DNA of 64,000 bases from Chthonomonadales bacterium (GTDB lineage: Bacteria; Armatimonadota; Chthonomonadetes; Chthonomonadales; CAJBBX01). Under the pieces are notes generated by a model, which did not search any database, was not told the origin of the DNA, and saw only the letters and a program-made list of their open reading frames with translations. Of this stretch, positions 19,457 to 26,516 are shown piece after piece (the first letter of the stretch is position 1; every line of letters starts with the position of its first letter). The position numbers were made by a program, and so were the translations under genes. The stretch covers positions 1 through 64,000 of the forward strand of contig JADLGO010000046.1 of the NCBI GenBank assembly GCA_020849275.1, given 5' to 3'.

Positions 19457-20827
19457 ATGCACGACGCACCCACCTGGTGGCGGCAGGGAATCGACTTCTC
19501 GCGAGTTCCGGAGATGGTCACCGACAGTCCGGGACCCGAGTCGCGGCGCGTGCACGCCGGCGCCGCGCGATACATCCGGGGCCTCTCGTCGCAGGTTAAG
19601 TTGCACCCCGTCGCCTTCCGCGATGGCTTCGGCGTCGTGCTGCGCGACGTGGACGGCAACTCCTACCTCGACTTCTCGTCGGGCATCTACGTGACCACGC
19701 TCGGCCACTGCCACCCGCGGATCTCCGAGGCGGTGGCTTGCGCCGCGCGCACGCTCATGAACTGCCATGACTTTACCACGCCGGTGAAGGCCGAGCTCCT
19801 GGAGGCCCTGGTCAACGTGATGCCGGCCGGCCTGGACGGCGTGCAACTCTACGACAGCGGCACGACGGCCGTCGAGGCCGCATTGCGCGCCGCGCGCGCG
19901 CACACCGGGCGCCACGAGTTCCTCAGTTGCTTCATGGACTTCCACGGCAAGACGGGCCACGCCGTCAGCCTCGCGCGCATGAACGACACGAACGGCGCGG
20001 GCCGGGCGCAGGGCTTCGCCCTGGTGCCCCGGCCGGACCCGTACCGCCCCATCTTCACTCGACCCGATGGGGCGATCGATACCGACGCGTACATTGCCTT
20101 CTACGAGTCGTTCGTGCTGAACGCCACCACCGGCCAGATCGCCGCGTTCGTCATCGAGCCGATCCAGGGCTGGGCGGGCTCCATCATGCCGCCCGACGAC
20201 TTCCTCCCGAAGCTGCGAGCCTTCTGCGACCGCCACCGAATGCTGCTCATCGCCGACGAGGTGCTCACCGGAATGGGCCGAACCGGCGCCTATCTGGCGA
20301 TGGAGCACTGGGACACGGTCGCGGACATCTACACGCTCGGCAAGGGGTTCGGCAACGGCTTCCCGGTGACGGCGATGGTGGCGCGCGAGGACGTGAAGGA
20401 GGCGTTCGACCGCATCTCCGCTTCGACGAGCTACGGCGGCAACCCGATGGCTTGCGCGGCCGCCCTCGCCAGCCTGCGCGTCATCGAGGAGGAAGGGCTC
20501 CTGGAGAACGCACGCAGGCTGGAGGCGTTCTTTGTGGCGCGCATGGCGCGCATGATGGGCGAGCATCCGATCATCGGCCACGTGCGCGCCCGTGGCTGCC
20601 TGCTCGGCATCGAGCTCGTGAAAGACCGCGCCACCAAGGAGCCCTTCGATGAGGCCGGCAAGCGCGTCTACCGCAAGGCCTTCCGTAAGGGACTGGCCTG
20701 GATACCCGCCGGGCACATCCTCCGCCTCTCGCCGCCCATCATCATGGACGAGGAGCTGGCCGCGCGCGGCATGGACATCGTGGACGAGGCGATTGGCGAG
20801 ACGGAGCGGGAGCTGGGGTACCGTTGA
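19457..20827 (+). CDS. Class III pyridoxal-phosphate aminotransferase
   Basis: The ATG at 19457 follows GGGGAGG. The 456-residue protein has the class III pattern: DGFGVVLRDVDGNSYLDFSSGIYVTTLGHCHP near residue 58, LYDSGTTAVEAALRAAR, FVIEPIQGWAG, then LLIADEVLTGMGRTG and the PLP-binding lysine in YTLGKGFGNGFP (about Lys296). Family members transfer amino groups to or from omega-amino acids, aldehydes or keto sugars. It is the first of five genes in a tight run (cupin, FGGY kinase, creatininase-like, GNAT-GH38), which suggests an amino-sugar or amino-polyol substrate. The next start (TTG) overlaps its stop. Confidence 0.9.
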   Translation: MHDAPTWWRQGIDFSRVPEMVTDSPGPESRRVHAGAARYIRGLSSQVKLHPVAFRDGFGVVLRDVDGNSYLDFSSGIYVTTLGHCHPRISEAVACAARTLMNCHDFTTPVKAELLEALVNVMPAGLDGVQLYDSGTTAVEAALRAARAHTGRHEFLSCFMDFHGKTGHAVSLARMNDTNGAGRAQGFALVPRPDPYRPIFTRPDGAIDTDAYIAFYESFVLNATTGQIAAFVIEPIQGWAGSIMPPDDFLPKLRAFCDRHRMLLIADEVLTGMGRTGAYLAMEHWDTVADIYTLGKGFGNGFPVTAMVAREDVKEAFDRISASTSYGGNPMACAAALASLRVIEEEGLLENARRLEAFFVARMARMMGEHPIIGHVRARGCLLGIELVKDRATKEPFDEAGKRVYRKAFRKGLAWIPAGHILRLSPPIIMDEELAARGMDIVDEAIGETERELGYR

Positions 20828-21315
20828 GCGCCGACGACGCGGCCTGGGCCCGCGACCTGGAGGCCCCCGCCGAGGAGCGCGAGGCCGCCCTCGCCGAGGC
20901 GGCGCGCATCATCGGCGACTGGGGACTCGTCATGCCGCCCGGCACGCCGCTCGCGCTCGACTTCGGGCTGCGCGCGTTCCGTCGCACGGGCGAGATCGAG
21001 TACTGGATCGTCAACGACACCGAGCGCGGCTACTGCGGCAAGCTCCTCTTCCTCTTCGACGGGCAGAGCTGCCCCCGCCACCGACATCACATGAAGGACG
21101 AGACCTTCTTCGTGGTGCGCGGCCAGGTGCGCATGGAGATGGAGGGGCGCGAGATGAGGCTGGCGCCCGGAGACACGCTGCGAATGCCTCCCGGCACGGT
21201 CCACTCCTTCCGCGCCGACGGAGGCCCCGCCCTCATCCTGGAGGTGTCGTTGCCGTCGGTGCCGGGCGACAACCGGTTCGACGACACGCGGATCGGGCGG
21301 GACGGGGTGCTGTGA
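20824..21315 (+). CDS. Cupin-fold sugar isomerase, D-lyxose isomerase-like
   Basis: The 163-residue protein starts at a TTG overlapping the aminotransferase stop. The cupin core is plain: SCPRHRHHMKDETFFVVRGQVRMEMEG near residue 80 supplies the His-x-His and Glu metal ligands, and LAPGDTLRMPPGTVHSFRADGG near 120 supplies the last His. An N-terminal FGLRAFRRTGEIEYWIVNDTERGYCGKLLFLFDGQ is like the D-lyxose isomerase group (E. coli YdaE type). This fits a sugar-isomerase job feeding the FGGY kinase encoded next, which starts four bases before this gene ends. The real substrate is unproven. Confidence 0.75.
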   Translation: MSADDAAWARDLEAPAEEREAALAEAARIIGDWGLVMPPGTPLALDFGLRAFRRTGEIEYWIVNDTERGYCGKLLFLFDGQSCPRHRHHMKDETFFVVRGQVRMEMEGREMRLAPGDTLRMPPGTVHSFRADGGPALILEVSLPSVPGDNRFDDTRIGRDGVL

Positions 21316-22670
21316 GCGGCGCCCCGCCCACGTGCGTGCTCGCCCTGGACCTGGGCACCACGGCGTTCAAGGCCGGCGCGGTCGGCCCCTCCGGCCTCCT
21401 CGCGCCCCCCGCCGTGGTGCGCTACCGCCTTGACTCAGTCGATGGCGCCGTCACCTGCGACGCGGGGGCCTATCGCCGGGCCGCGTTCCGGGCACTGGCC
21501 GGCGCGGCGCGAGCGGCTCACGAGCGCGGCGTCCGCGTGGCGGCCGTCGGCGTCTCGTCGCAGGCGCAGACCTTCGTCGTCGTGGGGCCGGATGGCCGCC
21601 CCGCGGGACCCGCCATCGTCTGGACCGACGCCCGCGCGGCGAAGGAAGCCGCAGAGGCCGCCGGCGCGCTGCCGGACTTCGCCGTCCGCGCCGGCTGGAC
21701 GCGCCCGAGCGCCCAACAGCTCCTCCCCAAGGCGATGGCCCTCGCCCGATCTGGCCGGCTCCCGCCCCGACCGCGCAAGCTCCTGCTGCTCAACGAGTAC
21801 ATCCTGCTCCTCCTCACCGGCCGCGCCTTTGGCGACCAGACGAACCAGGGCATGGGCGGCCTCTTCGACATCCGGCGCCGCGCCTGGTGGCCCGAGGCGC
21901 TGCGGCTCGCCGGCCTCGAGCCCCAGGATCTCGCCGAGGTCGCGCCGGCCGCCGCCATCTCCGCGCCACTCTCCGGGCCGGTGGCCCGGCGGCTCGGCCT
22001 CGCGGGCGTTCCAGCCTGCTCGTGCGGTAACGACCAGAGCGCCGCGGCGGCCGGAGCCGACCTCGCGTCGGGCGCGGCGCTCTGCAACCTGGGCACGGCG
22101 ATGGTGGTCTTCTCGCCGCGCGGCCACCTTCCCGTGCCGTCCTCCGATGGCCAGGCCGCCGGCATTCACGCCCTCACGGACCGCGGCTTCCTGCTCGGAT
22201 TCGAGTCGGAGTGCGGCAACGTGATGGAGTGGCTGCTGGGCCTGCTCTATCCACGGCTCTCCACCGACGCGGCGATGGCGCTCGCCCTGGCGGGCGAGGC
22301 CGACCCACGCCACATGCCGCGCGTGGCCGCCCTGGGCGGCGGTCGCATCGACCTGCGCGGCCTGACCGTGGGCTGCTCCGCGCGCGACGTGGTCCGGGGC
22401 GCCGCCGCCCACTACGCCGCGCGGCTCGACGGGTTGCTGGAGGGCGTCGCCGGGGCGGGCTTCCGTGGCACGCCGCATGTGGCGGCCGGTGGGCTCTCGC
22501 GCGGCCAGCCCTTGCTGGATCTGGTGGAGCGCGAGCACGGCATCCGCCTGGTTCGGGCCGCCACGGAGCACCTCGGGCTGATCGGGATCGCGCGCATCCT
22601 GGCGCGGGCCGGCCTGGCGCCCGCACCGCACCCGGAGGAGACCGCATGGAGCACCGCTTCGAGTACCTGA
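21312..22670 (+). CDS. FGGY-family carbohydrate kinase, xylulokinase-like
   Basis: The 452-residue protein begins at a GTG overlapping the cupin stop. It has the FGGY opening ATP motif LALDLGTTAFKAGAV at residues 9-23, VSSQAQTFVVVGPDGRPAGPAIVWTDARA near 75, and LTDRGFLLGFESECGNVMEW and PHVAAGGLSRGQPLLDLVERE (near 400), the second phosphate loop. Members phosphorylate pentuloses, polyols or inositols with ATP. With the cupin and aminotransferase genes it would complete import, isomerisation and phosphorylation of the sugar. It overlaps the next gene by 25 bases, so translation is probably coupled. Confidence 0.9.
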   Translation: MSGAPPTCVLALDLGTTAFKAGAVGPSGLLAPPAVVRYRLDSVDGAVTCDAGAYRRAAFRALAGAARAAHERGVRVAAVGVSSQAQTFVVVGPDGRPAGPAIVWTDARAAKEAAEAAGALPDFAVRAGWTRPSAQQLLPKAMALARSGRLPPRPRKLLLLNEYILLLLTGRAFGDQTNQGMGGLFDIRRRAWWPEALRLAGLEPQDLAEVAPAAAISAPLSGPVARRLGLAGVPACSCGNDQSAAAAGADLASGAALCNLGTAMVVFSPRGHLPVPSSDGQAAGIHALTDRGFLLGFESECGNVMEWLLGLLYPRLSTDAAMALALAGEADPRHMPRVAALGGGRIDLRGLTVGCSARDVVRGAAAHYAARLDGLLEGVAGAGFRGTPHVAAGGLSRGQPLLDLVEREHGIRLVRAATEHLGLIGIARILARAGLAPAPHPEETAWSTASST

Positions 22671-23437
22671 CGTCCGAGCAGCTCAGGCCGTGGATCGAGC
22701 GCAAGGCCCTGCTGGTGATGGGCATCGGCACCATCGAGGAGCACGGCGCGCACCTGCCCACCGGCACCGACTGGTTCATCACCCAGCGGTTCATCGAGGA
22801 CCTCGGCCGGCGGCTGGAGGCCGACGGCCGGGTTCCGTTCCTCACGCTGCCGGCCATCTGGACGGGCTACTCCGCCGCCGAGATGCAGCGCTGGCCGGGC
22901 ACGATCCGGATGCGCGCGCGCACCGTGATGGACATGGTGCGCGAGATCGTCGGGTCGCTGTGCGAGATGGGGTTCGACAAGGTGCTGATCCTCAACGGAC
23001 ACGGGCACCACACGGACCTTCTGCGCGTGGCGGCACGCGAGATCGCCGATGACCACGGCGTCTATCCCGCGGTCTCCAACTTCCTCTACCTGGGAGCCGC
23101 CGAGTACAACGCGGTGCGTCGCGGCGCGGCCGGCGGGAGCATCCACGGCGGCGAGGACGAGACCTCGGTCATGCTGCATTACGGCTACCCGGTCGATGCA
23201 GCGCGGTACACAGACGCGGATCACGTGCACTACCACTCCGAGTTCATCGCGGGCGACAACTTCGTCGGGTCGAGCAAGGTGTTCTGGTCAACCTGGTACG
23301 TCCACCGCAGCCAGACCGGCCTACTGGGCGACCCGACGCCCGCCACGGCCGAGGCCGGACGCGTGCTCATCGAGGCGTGCGTCGAGCGGTTGGCGCGCTT
23401 CGCCGACGAGTACTGGCACTACCGCCCCGCCCGCTGA
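22646..23437 (+). CDS. Creatininase-family amidohydrolase
   Basis: The ATG at 22646 lies inside the kinase gene, after CCCGGAGGAG. The 263-residue protein has the metal-binding signature GTIEEHGAHLPTGTD (residues 28-42), the catalytic NGHGHHTDLL near 115 and HGGEDETSVML near 165, whose Glu is a metal ligand. The family includes creatininase and enzymes for mycofactocin peptide processing, riboflavin-related formamides and other cyclic amides or formamides. In a sugar locus with an aminotransferase it could remove or open an amide on an amino sugar. That is a guess from neighbours. Confidence 0.87.
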   Translation: MEHRFEYLTSEQLRPWIERKALLVMGIGTIEEHGAHLPTGTDWFITQRFIEDLGRRLEADGRVPFLTLPAIWTGYSAAEMQRWPGTIRMRARTVMDMVREIVGSLCEMGFDKVLILNGHGHHTDLLRVAAREIADDHGVYPAVSNFLYLGAAEYNAVRRGAAGGSIHGGEDETSVMLHYGYPVDAARYTDADHVHYHSEFIAGDNFVGSSKVFWSTWYVHRSQTGLLGDPTPATAEAGRVLIEACVERLARFADEYWHYRPAR

Positions 23438-23465: not shown

Positions 23466-26400
23466 GTGGCCGACTGGACCATCCTGCCAATCCTTCCGCC
23501 GCAAGCCGGCCAGCTACTCCGGTTCCTGCTGGCGCTGGACCGCGAGACGGTGGCCTTCTTCCACCCCCACCCGTTCGACCACGAGCACGTCGAGCGCCTG
23601 CTGAGCGGGACGATCGACGGCTCTGTGAGCGCCTTCCAGGCCGTCGCCCCGGGCGGCCGGGAGTTGGCGGCCTACGGCTGGCTCGCGAAGATGAACTCGG
23701 AGGCGCCGTGGCTCGGGCTCTGCGTCGGGGCGCCCTGGCGCGGCCAGGGCGCCGGGCGCGCGCTCACCACCTGCCTCCTCGACGAGGCGACGCTGCGCGG
23801 GCGCGCCCGCGTGCGCCTCAGCGTGGTCAAGGCCAACGCGCGCGCCCTGGCGCTCTACCGCGGCCTGGGGTTCGAGGTGATCGAGGACCGCGAGGCGGAG
23901 GACCCGCCCTCCTGGAGGATGGCGCGCGTGCTGGCCCCCTCGGCCGGCGAGCGGGCCGCCGCCATCCGGCGGCGCCTGAGCGGCCGGCGCATCCGGATGG
24001 TGCCCTACACCCACTGCGACTGGGCCTGGGTGCACACGCGCCATTGGCACGCGCGCCGCTATGCGCTCGTGTTCGAGGAGGTTCTCGCGCTGCTGCGCCA
24101 CGATCCCGGGTATCGGTGGTACCTGGACAACTACGCTTGCGAGCTCGCGCCGCTCCTGGAGCATCGACCCGACCTCCTGCCGGAGCTGCGCGCGCGCGTC
24201 GCCCAGGGCGCCATCGCCATCTGCGGCGGCTACTCCAACGTACGCCCGCATATGGTCGGCGACGAGACCTTCGTCCGCAGCCTCCAGATCGGCCGACGGC
24301 TGTTCGGCGCCCTCTTCCCGGAGGCCAACCTCTCGGTGCACGCCGACTGCGTCGACGTGGCCGCGGGACACCCGCAGCTTCCGCAGGTGCTCACGCTCGC
24401 GGGCTACACGGCGCTGCGCACATGGCGCCCCTACGGCGCGCTGAGCCTCAAGGGCGTGCCCACCGAGCTCGTGTGGGAGGGGATCGACGGGAGCCGCATC
24501 GTGATGTCGCGCGGCTGCTACGGCGGCCTCTGGGAGATCGCCGACTCGCAGAGCGCTCTGCGGGCCCCCGAGCAGGCCGGCGCCGACGGGCTGCTCGCGG
24601 CGCTCTGGGACGCCGAGCTCCAGGAGCGCACGCGCATGGCGGCTGGCTCGCTCGTGTGGCTAGCCCGCGGGTGTGACGACACGCGCCCCGGCCGCCTGAT
24701 GGACGACACGCCGTTCGACGAGCGGGCCCTGATGGATCACTGGAACGCCCTCGGGCTGCCGGAGATGCGGTTCGCCACGCCCGTGGAGTACTTCGCCGAG
24801 CTCGAACAGGAGCGCGCCGCCCTGCCGGTGGTCCACGGCGAGCTGGACGCCTGCGACGTGGCGTACAACGCGGCCTGGAACGGCGAGCAGGGCCTTGCCC
24901 CGCTGCGAGTTGCCAACGACGCCGTGCTCTGCGAGGCCGAGACCTTCCTCGCGCTGGCGGCACCGCACGGGCACGCGTGCCCCAACGGGGTGCTCGAGGC
25001 GCGCTGGCGCGACCACCTGCTCACCTGCGCGCACGCCACGCAGTGGTTGTACGCGGAGGACTTCGCCCTCATCCGAGCTCGAGCCGAGCAGGTGCGGCTG
25101 GAGGCGTCCCGCCTGCGCGATGACGCGCTCGACGCGCTGGTGCGAGCCGCCGGGCCGCCGCCGGACACGCTGGCCGTCGCCTTCAACGCTCTCCCGTGGG
25201 ACCGGGCCGCGTTCGTCCCGCTGACGCTCTCCTCCTATGGCCAGGGCTGGCCGGTCTCGGTGGCCGACTCGGACGGGCGCCCGCTGCCGGTACAGGTGCT
25301 GGAGGAGTTTCACGGGCAGGGCGGCTACGCGGAGCGCCGAGCGCTGGCACTGGTGGACCTGCCGGCGCTGGGCTATGCCTCCCTGCGCGAGCGCGCCGGC
25401 GAGGCGCCGCCGATGCCCGCTGCCCGGCCCCGCGTGCGCCCGGCGTGGGACGGCGCCCGCCTGGCCGGCCTAGAGGACCGCGACGCCGGGGCGGGCTGGA
25501 AGGCGCTGGGGAGCGCCGACCTGCTGACGCTACGGCTGGCGAGCGTCGCCGTCGGCGAGGGGCCGCTGCACGTGGGCCCGATCGTCGGCGAGGAGCTGGC
25601 CGACTGGTCGGAGCCTGCCGAACTGGAGACGGGGCCGCTGCGGTGGCGTTGGCGGCGGGAGGGCCGGGTCGGCGGGATCGGCGCTGCGATGGAGATGGCC
25701 GCGTTCGCCCATGAGCCGCGCCTGGACTGCACGCTCGAGCTCCACTGGCCCGGCCATGACGGCTTTCTGGCGGCGCGATGGGCCGTGCCGCCGGATTCCG
25801 CCCTCTGGGCCGACGTGCCCTTTGCCGTGGCGCCGCGCCGCCCCGAGGAGGAGCCCTACGGCATGGACCAGGTCGTCGGTCGCCACAGCATGGAGCGCAC
25901 GCGTCAGGGGCTCTTCTACGCGCGGAGCTGGGTGGCGGCCGAACGCGAGGACGTCGGCCTGGCCTTCGTCTCGCGCAACACGGACCGCTACTACCTGCGC
26001 GACATGGCGGCGGGCGCGCTGGAACACATCCTCATCAACAGCGTGATGACTCGGGAGGAGTGGGAGGCGCGCGTTGAGCCAACGACGCTCGGCGGCCTGG
26101 GCCGCCACCGGTTCGCCTGGAGCCTGCTGCTCTACGCGGGCGGCTGGCGCGGCGCGCGGCTCCCGCGCGCCGCGGCGAGCATCCGCTCGGAGCCGCGCAC
26201 GCGGGCCCCCGCGCGGTCCCCTGCGCCGCCCACCCTGCCGGCCCGCGCGTCGCTCGTGCGCCTGGAGCCGGCCGGATTGCTGCTGAGCGCGCTGATCGAG
26301 GAGGAGGGCGCCATCACCGCGCGTATCAGCGAGGTGCACGGCGAGGCCGTTCGGGCAGAGCTGACGCTGCCCTGGGAACCAGCCGGGGCCGTCGTGGTGG

Positions 26401-26516
26401 ACCTGGATGGGCGCATGGTGCCGGGCGCCGAGGTGGAGGCGCGCGGCTGCGCCGTCAGCGTCGCCCTGCGACCGTGGCAGATCGTGACCCTGCGCCTTCG
26501 GCGCCCCGCGCGCTGA
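23466..26516 (+). CDS. GNAT acetyltransferase fused to GH38-like alpha-mannosidase
   Basis: The GTG at 23466 follows CGGGAG. One frame of 1016 residues carries two unrelated domains. Residues 1 to about 165 are a GNAT N-acyltransferase, with motif A (WLGLCVGAPWRGQGAGRAL, Arg92-Gly-Gln-Gly-Ala-Gly) and RVRLSVVKANARALALYRGLGFEVIED. From about residue 175 a GH38-type glycosidase begins: RIRMVPYTHCDWAWVHTRHWH (zinc His183, Asp185), CGGYSNVRPHMVGDETFVRSLQ, and VDVAAGHPQLPQVL with the presumed nucleophile Asp297. A long C-terminal beta-rich part completes the alpha-mannosidase length. No signal peptide is seen. The last gene of the five-gene run, it likely deglycosylates imported substrate. A second internal start (GTG or ATG near 23930-23997) is possible. 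Confidence 0.85.
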   Translation: MADWTILPILPPQAGQLLRFLLALDRETVAFFHPHPFDHEHVERLLSGTIDGSVSAFQAVAPGGRELAAYGWLAKMNSEAPWLGLCVGAPWRGQGAGRALTTCLLDEATLRGRARVRLSVVKANARALALYRGLGFEVIEDREAEDPPSWRMARVLAPSAGERAAAIRRRLSGRRIRMVPYTHCDWAWVHTRHWHARRYALVFEEVLALLRHDPGYRWYLDNYACELAPLLEHRPDLLPELRARVAQGAIAICGGYSNVRPHMVGDETFVRSLQIGRRLFGALFPEANLSVHADCVDVAAGHPQLPQVLTLAGYTALRTWRPYGALSLKGVPTELVWEGIDGSRIVMSRGCYGGLWEIADSQSALRAPEQAGADGLLAALWDAELQERTRMAAGSLVWLARGCDDTRPGRLMDDTPFDERALMDHWNALGLPEMRFATPVEYFAELEQERAALPVVHGELDACDVAYNAAWNGEQGLAPLRVANDAVLCEAETFLALAAPHGHACPNGVLEARWRDHLLTCAHATQWLYAEDFALIRARAEQVRLEASRLRDDALDALVRAAGPPPDTLAVAFNALPWDRAAFVPLTLSSYGQGWPVSVADSDGRPLPVQVLEEFHGQGGYAERRALALVDLPALGYASLRERAGEAPPMPAARPRVRPAWDGARLAGLEDRDAGAGWKALGSADLLTLRLASVAVGEGPLHVGPIVGEELADWSEPAELETGPLRWRWRREGRVGGIGAAMEMAAFAHEPRLDCTLELHWPGHDGFLAARWAVPPDSALWADVPFAVAPRRPEEEPYGMDQVVGRHSMERTRQGLFYARSWVAAEREDVGLAFVSRNTDRYYLRDMAAGALEHILINSVMTREEWEARVEPTTLGGLGRHRFAWSLLLYAGGWRGARLPRAAASIRSEPRTRAPARSPAPPTLPARASLVRLEPAGLLLSALIEEEGAITARISEVHGEAVRAELTLPWEPAGAVVVDLDGRMVPGAEVEARGCAVSVALRPWQIVTLRLRRPAR

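Follow-up and report, generated by a model that had tools for sequence, protein, structure and literature searches.

The stretch of DNA analysed here (the window; 64,000 nucleotides from a Chthonomonadales bacterium) comes from a 4.8-Mb genome whose named relatives are Chthonomonas-like Armatimonadota. Within it, genes for an aminotransferase, a cupin, an FGGY kinase and a creatininase-like hydrolase are followed, in that order, by an open frame of 1016 codons that starts with GTG, 28 bases past the creatininase-like gene. The product of this last gene joins a GNAT acetyltransferase domain to a GH38 glycosidase region (Table 1).

Table 1 Features of the fusion gene and its upstream neighbours, in window coordinates.
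Feature	Position	Strand	Remarks
Class III aminotransferase	19547..20827 (start approximate)	+	PF00202; 71% identical to G270 neighbour
Cupin / D-lyxose-isomerase-like protein	20824..21315	+	PF07883, PF07385; 58% identical to G040 neighbour
FGGY carbohydrate kinase	21297..22670 (start approximate)	+	PF00370; 50% identical to G040 neighbour
Creatininase-family hydrolase	22637..23437	+	Adjacent upstream; PF02633, 178 bits; 79% identical to G040 neighbour
GNAT-GH38 fusion gene	23466..26516	+	1016 aa, GTG start, stop included
GNAT N-acetyltransferase domain	23469..23936	+	Residues about 2-157; Pfam PF00583, model, VIA-align
GNAT CoA-binding loop RGQGAG	23739..23756	+	Residues 92-97; G95 and G97 invariant in fused and stand-alone relatives
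GNAT Tyr131 (LYxxLGF), probable general acid	23856..23858	+	Nearly invariant; Ala in G040
GH38 region	23979..26513	+	Residues about 172-1016; N-terminal catalytic, helical and C-terminal beta domains
His183-x-Asp185, metal ligands by alignment	24012..24020	+	Invariant in 25/25 GH38 sequences; aligned to SpGH38
Asp297, catalytic nucleophile by alignment	24354..24356	+	Invariant
Asp404-Asp405, acid/base region (GCDD)	24675..24680	+	Invariant
His523, metal ligand by alignment	25032..25034	+	Invariant; HA where HD is usual

Pfam places Acetyltransf_1 (PF00583) at residues 36-136 (36.8 bits against a cut-off of 20.7) and Glyco_hydro_38N (PF01074) at residues 176-448 (61.4 bits against 25). The claim of an earlier note on this DNA, that GNAT and GH38 share one 1016-codon frame, was borne out by these matches as well as by the predicted structure, a fold search, homologues and selection; the motifs it had quoted were likewise all found (RGQGAG at residues 92-97, HCDWAW at 183-188, and VDVAAGHPQLPQ, in which D297 falls at the position of the GH38 nucleophile by alignment). 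The profile of the C-terminal beta domain (PF17677) scores below its cut-off in the window and above it at loci L037, L066 and L068; fold matches nonetheless cover residues 165-1013, and the GH38 domain order is complete, C-terminal beta domains included. A full-length AlphaFold2 model built from six sequences was of moderate quality (mean pLDDT 63.8). In this model, residues 165-1013 aligned with the GH38 structure 2wyh (VIA-align Z 21.5, 564 residues aligned, rmsd 6.8) and residues 2-161 with the GNAT structure 2i79 (Z 18.3, 152 aligned, rmsd 3.0); the sequence profile of the GH38 region matched 2wyh at 2.3e-30. Modelled alone, the N-terminal region, for which the earlier note had called for a fold prediction, gave a GNAT fold (pLDDT 86.4, pTM 0.84).

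Full-length fusions occur in 10 of the 291 Armatimonadota genomes searched, spread over three families and counting the genome of the window. The closest to the window (49-52% identity) are those of five genomes of its own family (G006, G007, G009, G010 and G011) and of G040, from another family; three more (G043, G056 and G069) are 38% identical, and a copy in the Planctomycetota (G291, locus L037) is 28% identical. Among 392 sampled Planctomycetota genomes the fusion was found only in G291, and no full-length fusion was found in nearer relatives of G291. In a further genome, G691, a match covers about 312 positions of the C-terminal end of the model and starts 42 bases from a contig start. 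Other phyla were covered unevenly, by a contig scan with exact short peptides that missed 38%-identical copies found later. The fusion is genuine and not an assembly error. The earlier worry over a missed stop or frameshift is answered by homologues of the same architecture in independent assemblies and by purifying selection on both domains, which together rule out such an artefact. In particular, between close relatives dN/dS is 0.17-0.19 for the GNAT part and 0.15-0.18 for the GH38 part, and because both values are similarly low, both parts are maintained. That two genes were joined by chance read-through or in assembly is vanishingly improbable, given that the architecture recurs across two phyla and that its linkers are short and its junctions align.

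Other Armatimonadota carry GH38 orthologues without a GNAT. In the stretches fetched around these, some of which stop at contig edges, the family GNAT profile (E 1e-3) detected no separate GNAT gene beside them. The GNAT tree groups the fused copies found in family f16 with stand-alone GNATs from their own genomes (97/91), away from the fused copies of f1 and f13. An AU test on this tree gave p 0.048 when all fused copies were held in one clade and p 0.13 when the planctomycete copy was left free; in the GH38 tree, unfused orthologues fall between two fused groups, and forcing those groups together gave p 0.187. These trees favour, but do not prove, two or more separate fusions. The AU results fall short of firmly rejecting a single fusion, and there may have been an ancestral fusion followed by losses.

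The residues expected of both active sites are present. In the GNAT part, RGQGAG matches the CoA-loop pattern R/Q-x-x-G-x-G/A, and G95, G97, N124 and L130 are invariant in the alignment, with Tyr131 nearly so. Across 25 GH38 homologues, whether fused or not, seven positions never vary (H183, D185, W188, D297, D404, D405 and H523, numbered as in the window protein), and the metal-ligand, nucleophile and acid positions line up with SpGH38 in a profile alignment. Directly after the metal His, the whole clade has Ala where the aligned solved GH38 enzymes have Asp. In Golgi mannosidase II this Asp contacts the sugar. Since Ala replaces it here, the specificity of the GH38 part may differ from, and need not be, plain mannose. 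Mannosylglycerate hydrolase (PRK09819) was rejected as a candidate (39.9 bits against a cut-off of 1138); despite that failed score, G040, G043 and G056 do have glycerate kinase genes close to the fusion.

Conservation of the GNAT residues bears on whether this part is catalytic at all. It might instead sense acetyl-CoA or serve as a structural module, and so regulate or stabilise the glycosidase, as with the pseudo-acetyltransferase domain of O-GlcNAcase, which in the human enzyme shows neither AcCoA binding nor activity (PMC3814719). The fused GNAT of G040 (L066, 7884-10940) has indeed lost the LYxxLGF Tyr, with Ala in its place, a possible step towards a pseudo-enzyme. However, the CoA loop is kept by every fused copy examined, and the Tyr by all except G040, and selection is as strong on the GNAT as on the GH38 part. 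We therefore judge a non-catalytic role improbable.

The fusion gene ends a conserved sugar-catabolic cluster, and this cluster offers a handle on the identity of the substrate. At the G040 locus the order is isomerase, glycerate kinase, cupin, Gfo/Idh oxidoreductase, FGGY kinase, creatininase-like gene and fusion; G011 and G007 have relatives of its Gfo/Idh gene (60-62%) close to their fusions, and another Gfo/Idh-like gene, judged by its sequence, follows the fusion at L037. At several fused loci no FGGY kinase was seen nearby. The genome G270 has a GH38 orthologue without a GNAT in a similar cluster, so the glycosidase step does not require the GNAT. The earlier note had taken the neighbours to fit an amino sugar. 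The creatininase-like neighbour is strongly linked to the fusion, being shared with G040. The aminotransferase proved a weak argument for an amino sugar: none turned up in the 19 kb surrounding the G040 fusion, and because the GNAT-less cluster of G270 has one that is 71% identical, this gene is no marker of GNAT function. The creatininase-like neighbours of the window and of G040 (L066, 7063-7863) are 79% identical, compared with about 50% for the adjacent fusions; such identity across two families may reflect transfer or unusual constraint. Elsewhere, in G081 (L140, 1785-3193), a stand-alone GNAT gene overlaps a Gfo/Idh-like oxidoreductase gene by one base. PADLOC returned no match to anti-phage defence.

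We tentatively propose, at somewhat less than an even chance, that the fusion is a bifunctional enzyme of the cytosol, one activity hydrolysing an alpha-glycoside and the other N-acetylating an amine carried by that substrate or by the product. The GH38 part would act as a metal-dependent retaining alpha-glycosidase with the alpha-mannosidase fold, cutting an alpha-glycoside that the neighbouring catabolic genes process. The GNAT part would use acetyl-CoA, which should be available to it because the chain opens directly with the GNAT domain and leaves no room for a signal peptide, to N-acetylate the amine of that glycoside or of the released piece, so that modification and cleavage would be coupled within a single chain. 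We infer that both domains are active, that a small amine, for example an amino sugar or amino cyclitol, serves as acceptor, and likewise the order of the steps. It is plausible that, as first suggested, the GNAT acylates the same sugar that the GH38 part releases. Counting against the bifunctional reading are GNAT fold matches that point to no sugar acceptor in particular, the fused GNAT of G040 that lacks the Tyr, the GH38 of G270 that lacks a GNAT, the Ala beside the metal His, and AU tests that leave room for a single fusion.

The acceptor could also be a protein. As a lysine acetyltransferase, the GNAT part would tune pathway enzymes (for example, the FGGY kinase two genes upstream) and would be carried on the GH38 protein for co-expression. 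Consistent with this, Foldseek ranks the GNAT domain of E. coli PatZ first for the GNAT model, an FGGY kinase is present in the cluster of the window, and Haloferax Pat2 is reported to acetylate glycerol kinase, an FGGY-family kinase (PMC12607858). However, SpeG and RimI-type enzymes (spermidine and ribosomal-protein acetyltransferases) follow close behind PatZ, within about tenfold of it in E-value; the GNAT sequence profile ranks 2ge3, PA1377 and RimI first and PatZ far below them; and no FGGY kinase was seen near several fused loci, as noted above. We regard protein acetylation as unlikely. That the part has a GNAT fold is certain, but the modelled fold does not identify the acceptor, and the matches to PatZ, SpeG and RimI single out no sugar.

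Relatives of this GNAT are joined to other domains in the phylum. At nine loci (L019, L024, L025, L116, L117, L118, L119, L126 and L127) they stand N-terminal to a domain of about 450 aa in which W, D, H and Cys residues are conserved; it has no sequence match in Pfam or the PDB and may be an undescribed enzyme family. Ceramidase-like proteins carry a C-terminal GNAT at L120, L121, L122 and L124 and an N-terminal one at L123; the Pfam Ceramidase_alk match in them is either weak and under its cut-off or absent. At L125 (257-2350) and L128 (1314-2498) the partners of the GNAT are M81/MlrC metallopeptidase domains and a DUF123 domain; the M81/MlrC protein with the C-terminal GNAT scores 245.9 and 124.2 bits in Pfam. 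A broader idea, which we hold as speculative and rather doubtful, is that this Armatimonadota GNAT lineage is a mobile acyl-tagging module, fused independently and repeatedly to unrelated hydrolases (GH38, the ~450-aa domain, ceramidase-like and M81/MlrC), and that it marks a catabolic strategy, so far unrecognised, that pairs the acetylation of amines with hydrolysis. If one GNAT lineage does recurrently join different hydrolases in this little-studied phylum, that would suggest a shared requirement for amine acetylation in sugar breakdown.

Full-text searches of open-access literature found no GNAT-GH38 fusion. Over the whole GH38 region, the bacterial GH38 alpha-mannosidases (for example Streptococcus pyogenes SpGH38, 2wyh/2wyi, and Enterococcus faecalis 3lvt/5kbp) share the fold and the aligned catalytic positions; they lack a GNAT, are about 15-16% identical in structural alignments, and have HD where the fusion has HA. 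PatZ and the S. lividans PAT share the GNAT fold, PatZ being the top Foldseek match, but are fused to an acyl-CoA synthetase-like part and act on protein lysines. GNAT-glycosidase fusions are already known from fungi (GH3) and animals (GH84), and the GH38 pairing adds to them. O-GlcNAcase (GH84, PMC3814719) similarly joins a glycosidase to a GNAT-fold domain, although that domain is C-terminal and, in human, catalytically incompetent, and the enzyme acts on proteins. The closest functional precedent is RmNag, a fungal GH3 beta-N-acetylglucosaminidase with glycosidase and GNAT in one chain (PMC4680927). Its glucosamine N-acetyltransferase activity is thought to handle terminal GlcN units that are poorly cleaved by the glycosidase (PMC4680927); unlike the fusion described here, RmNag has a GH3 rather than a GH38 domain, carries tandem C-terminal GNATs and serves fungal chitin metabolism. 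GH38 thus joins the glycosidases linked to a GNAT, with both active sites preserved.
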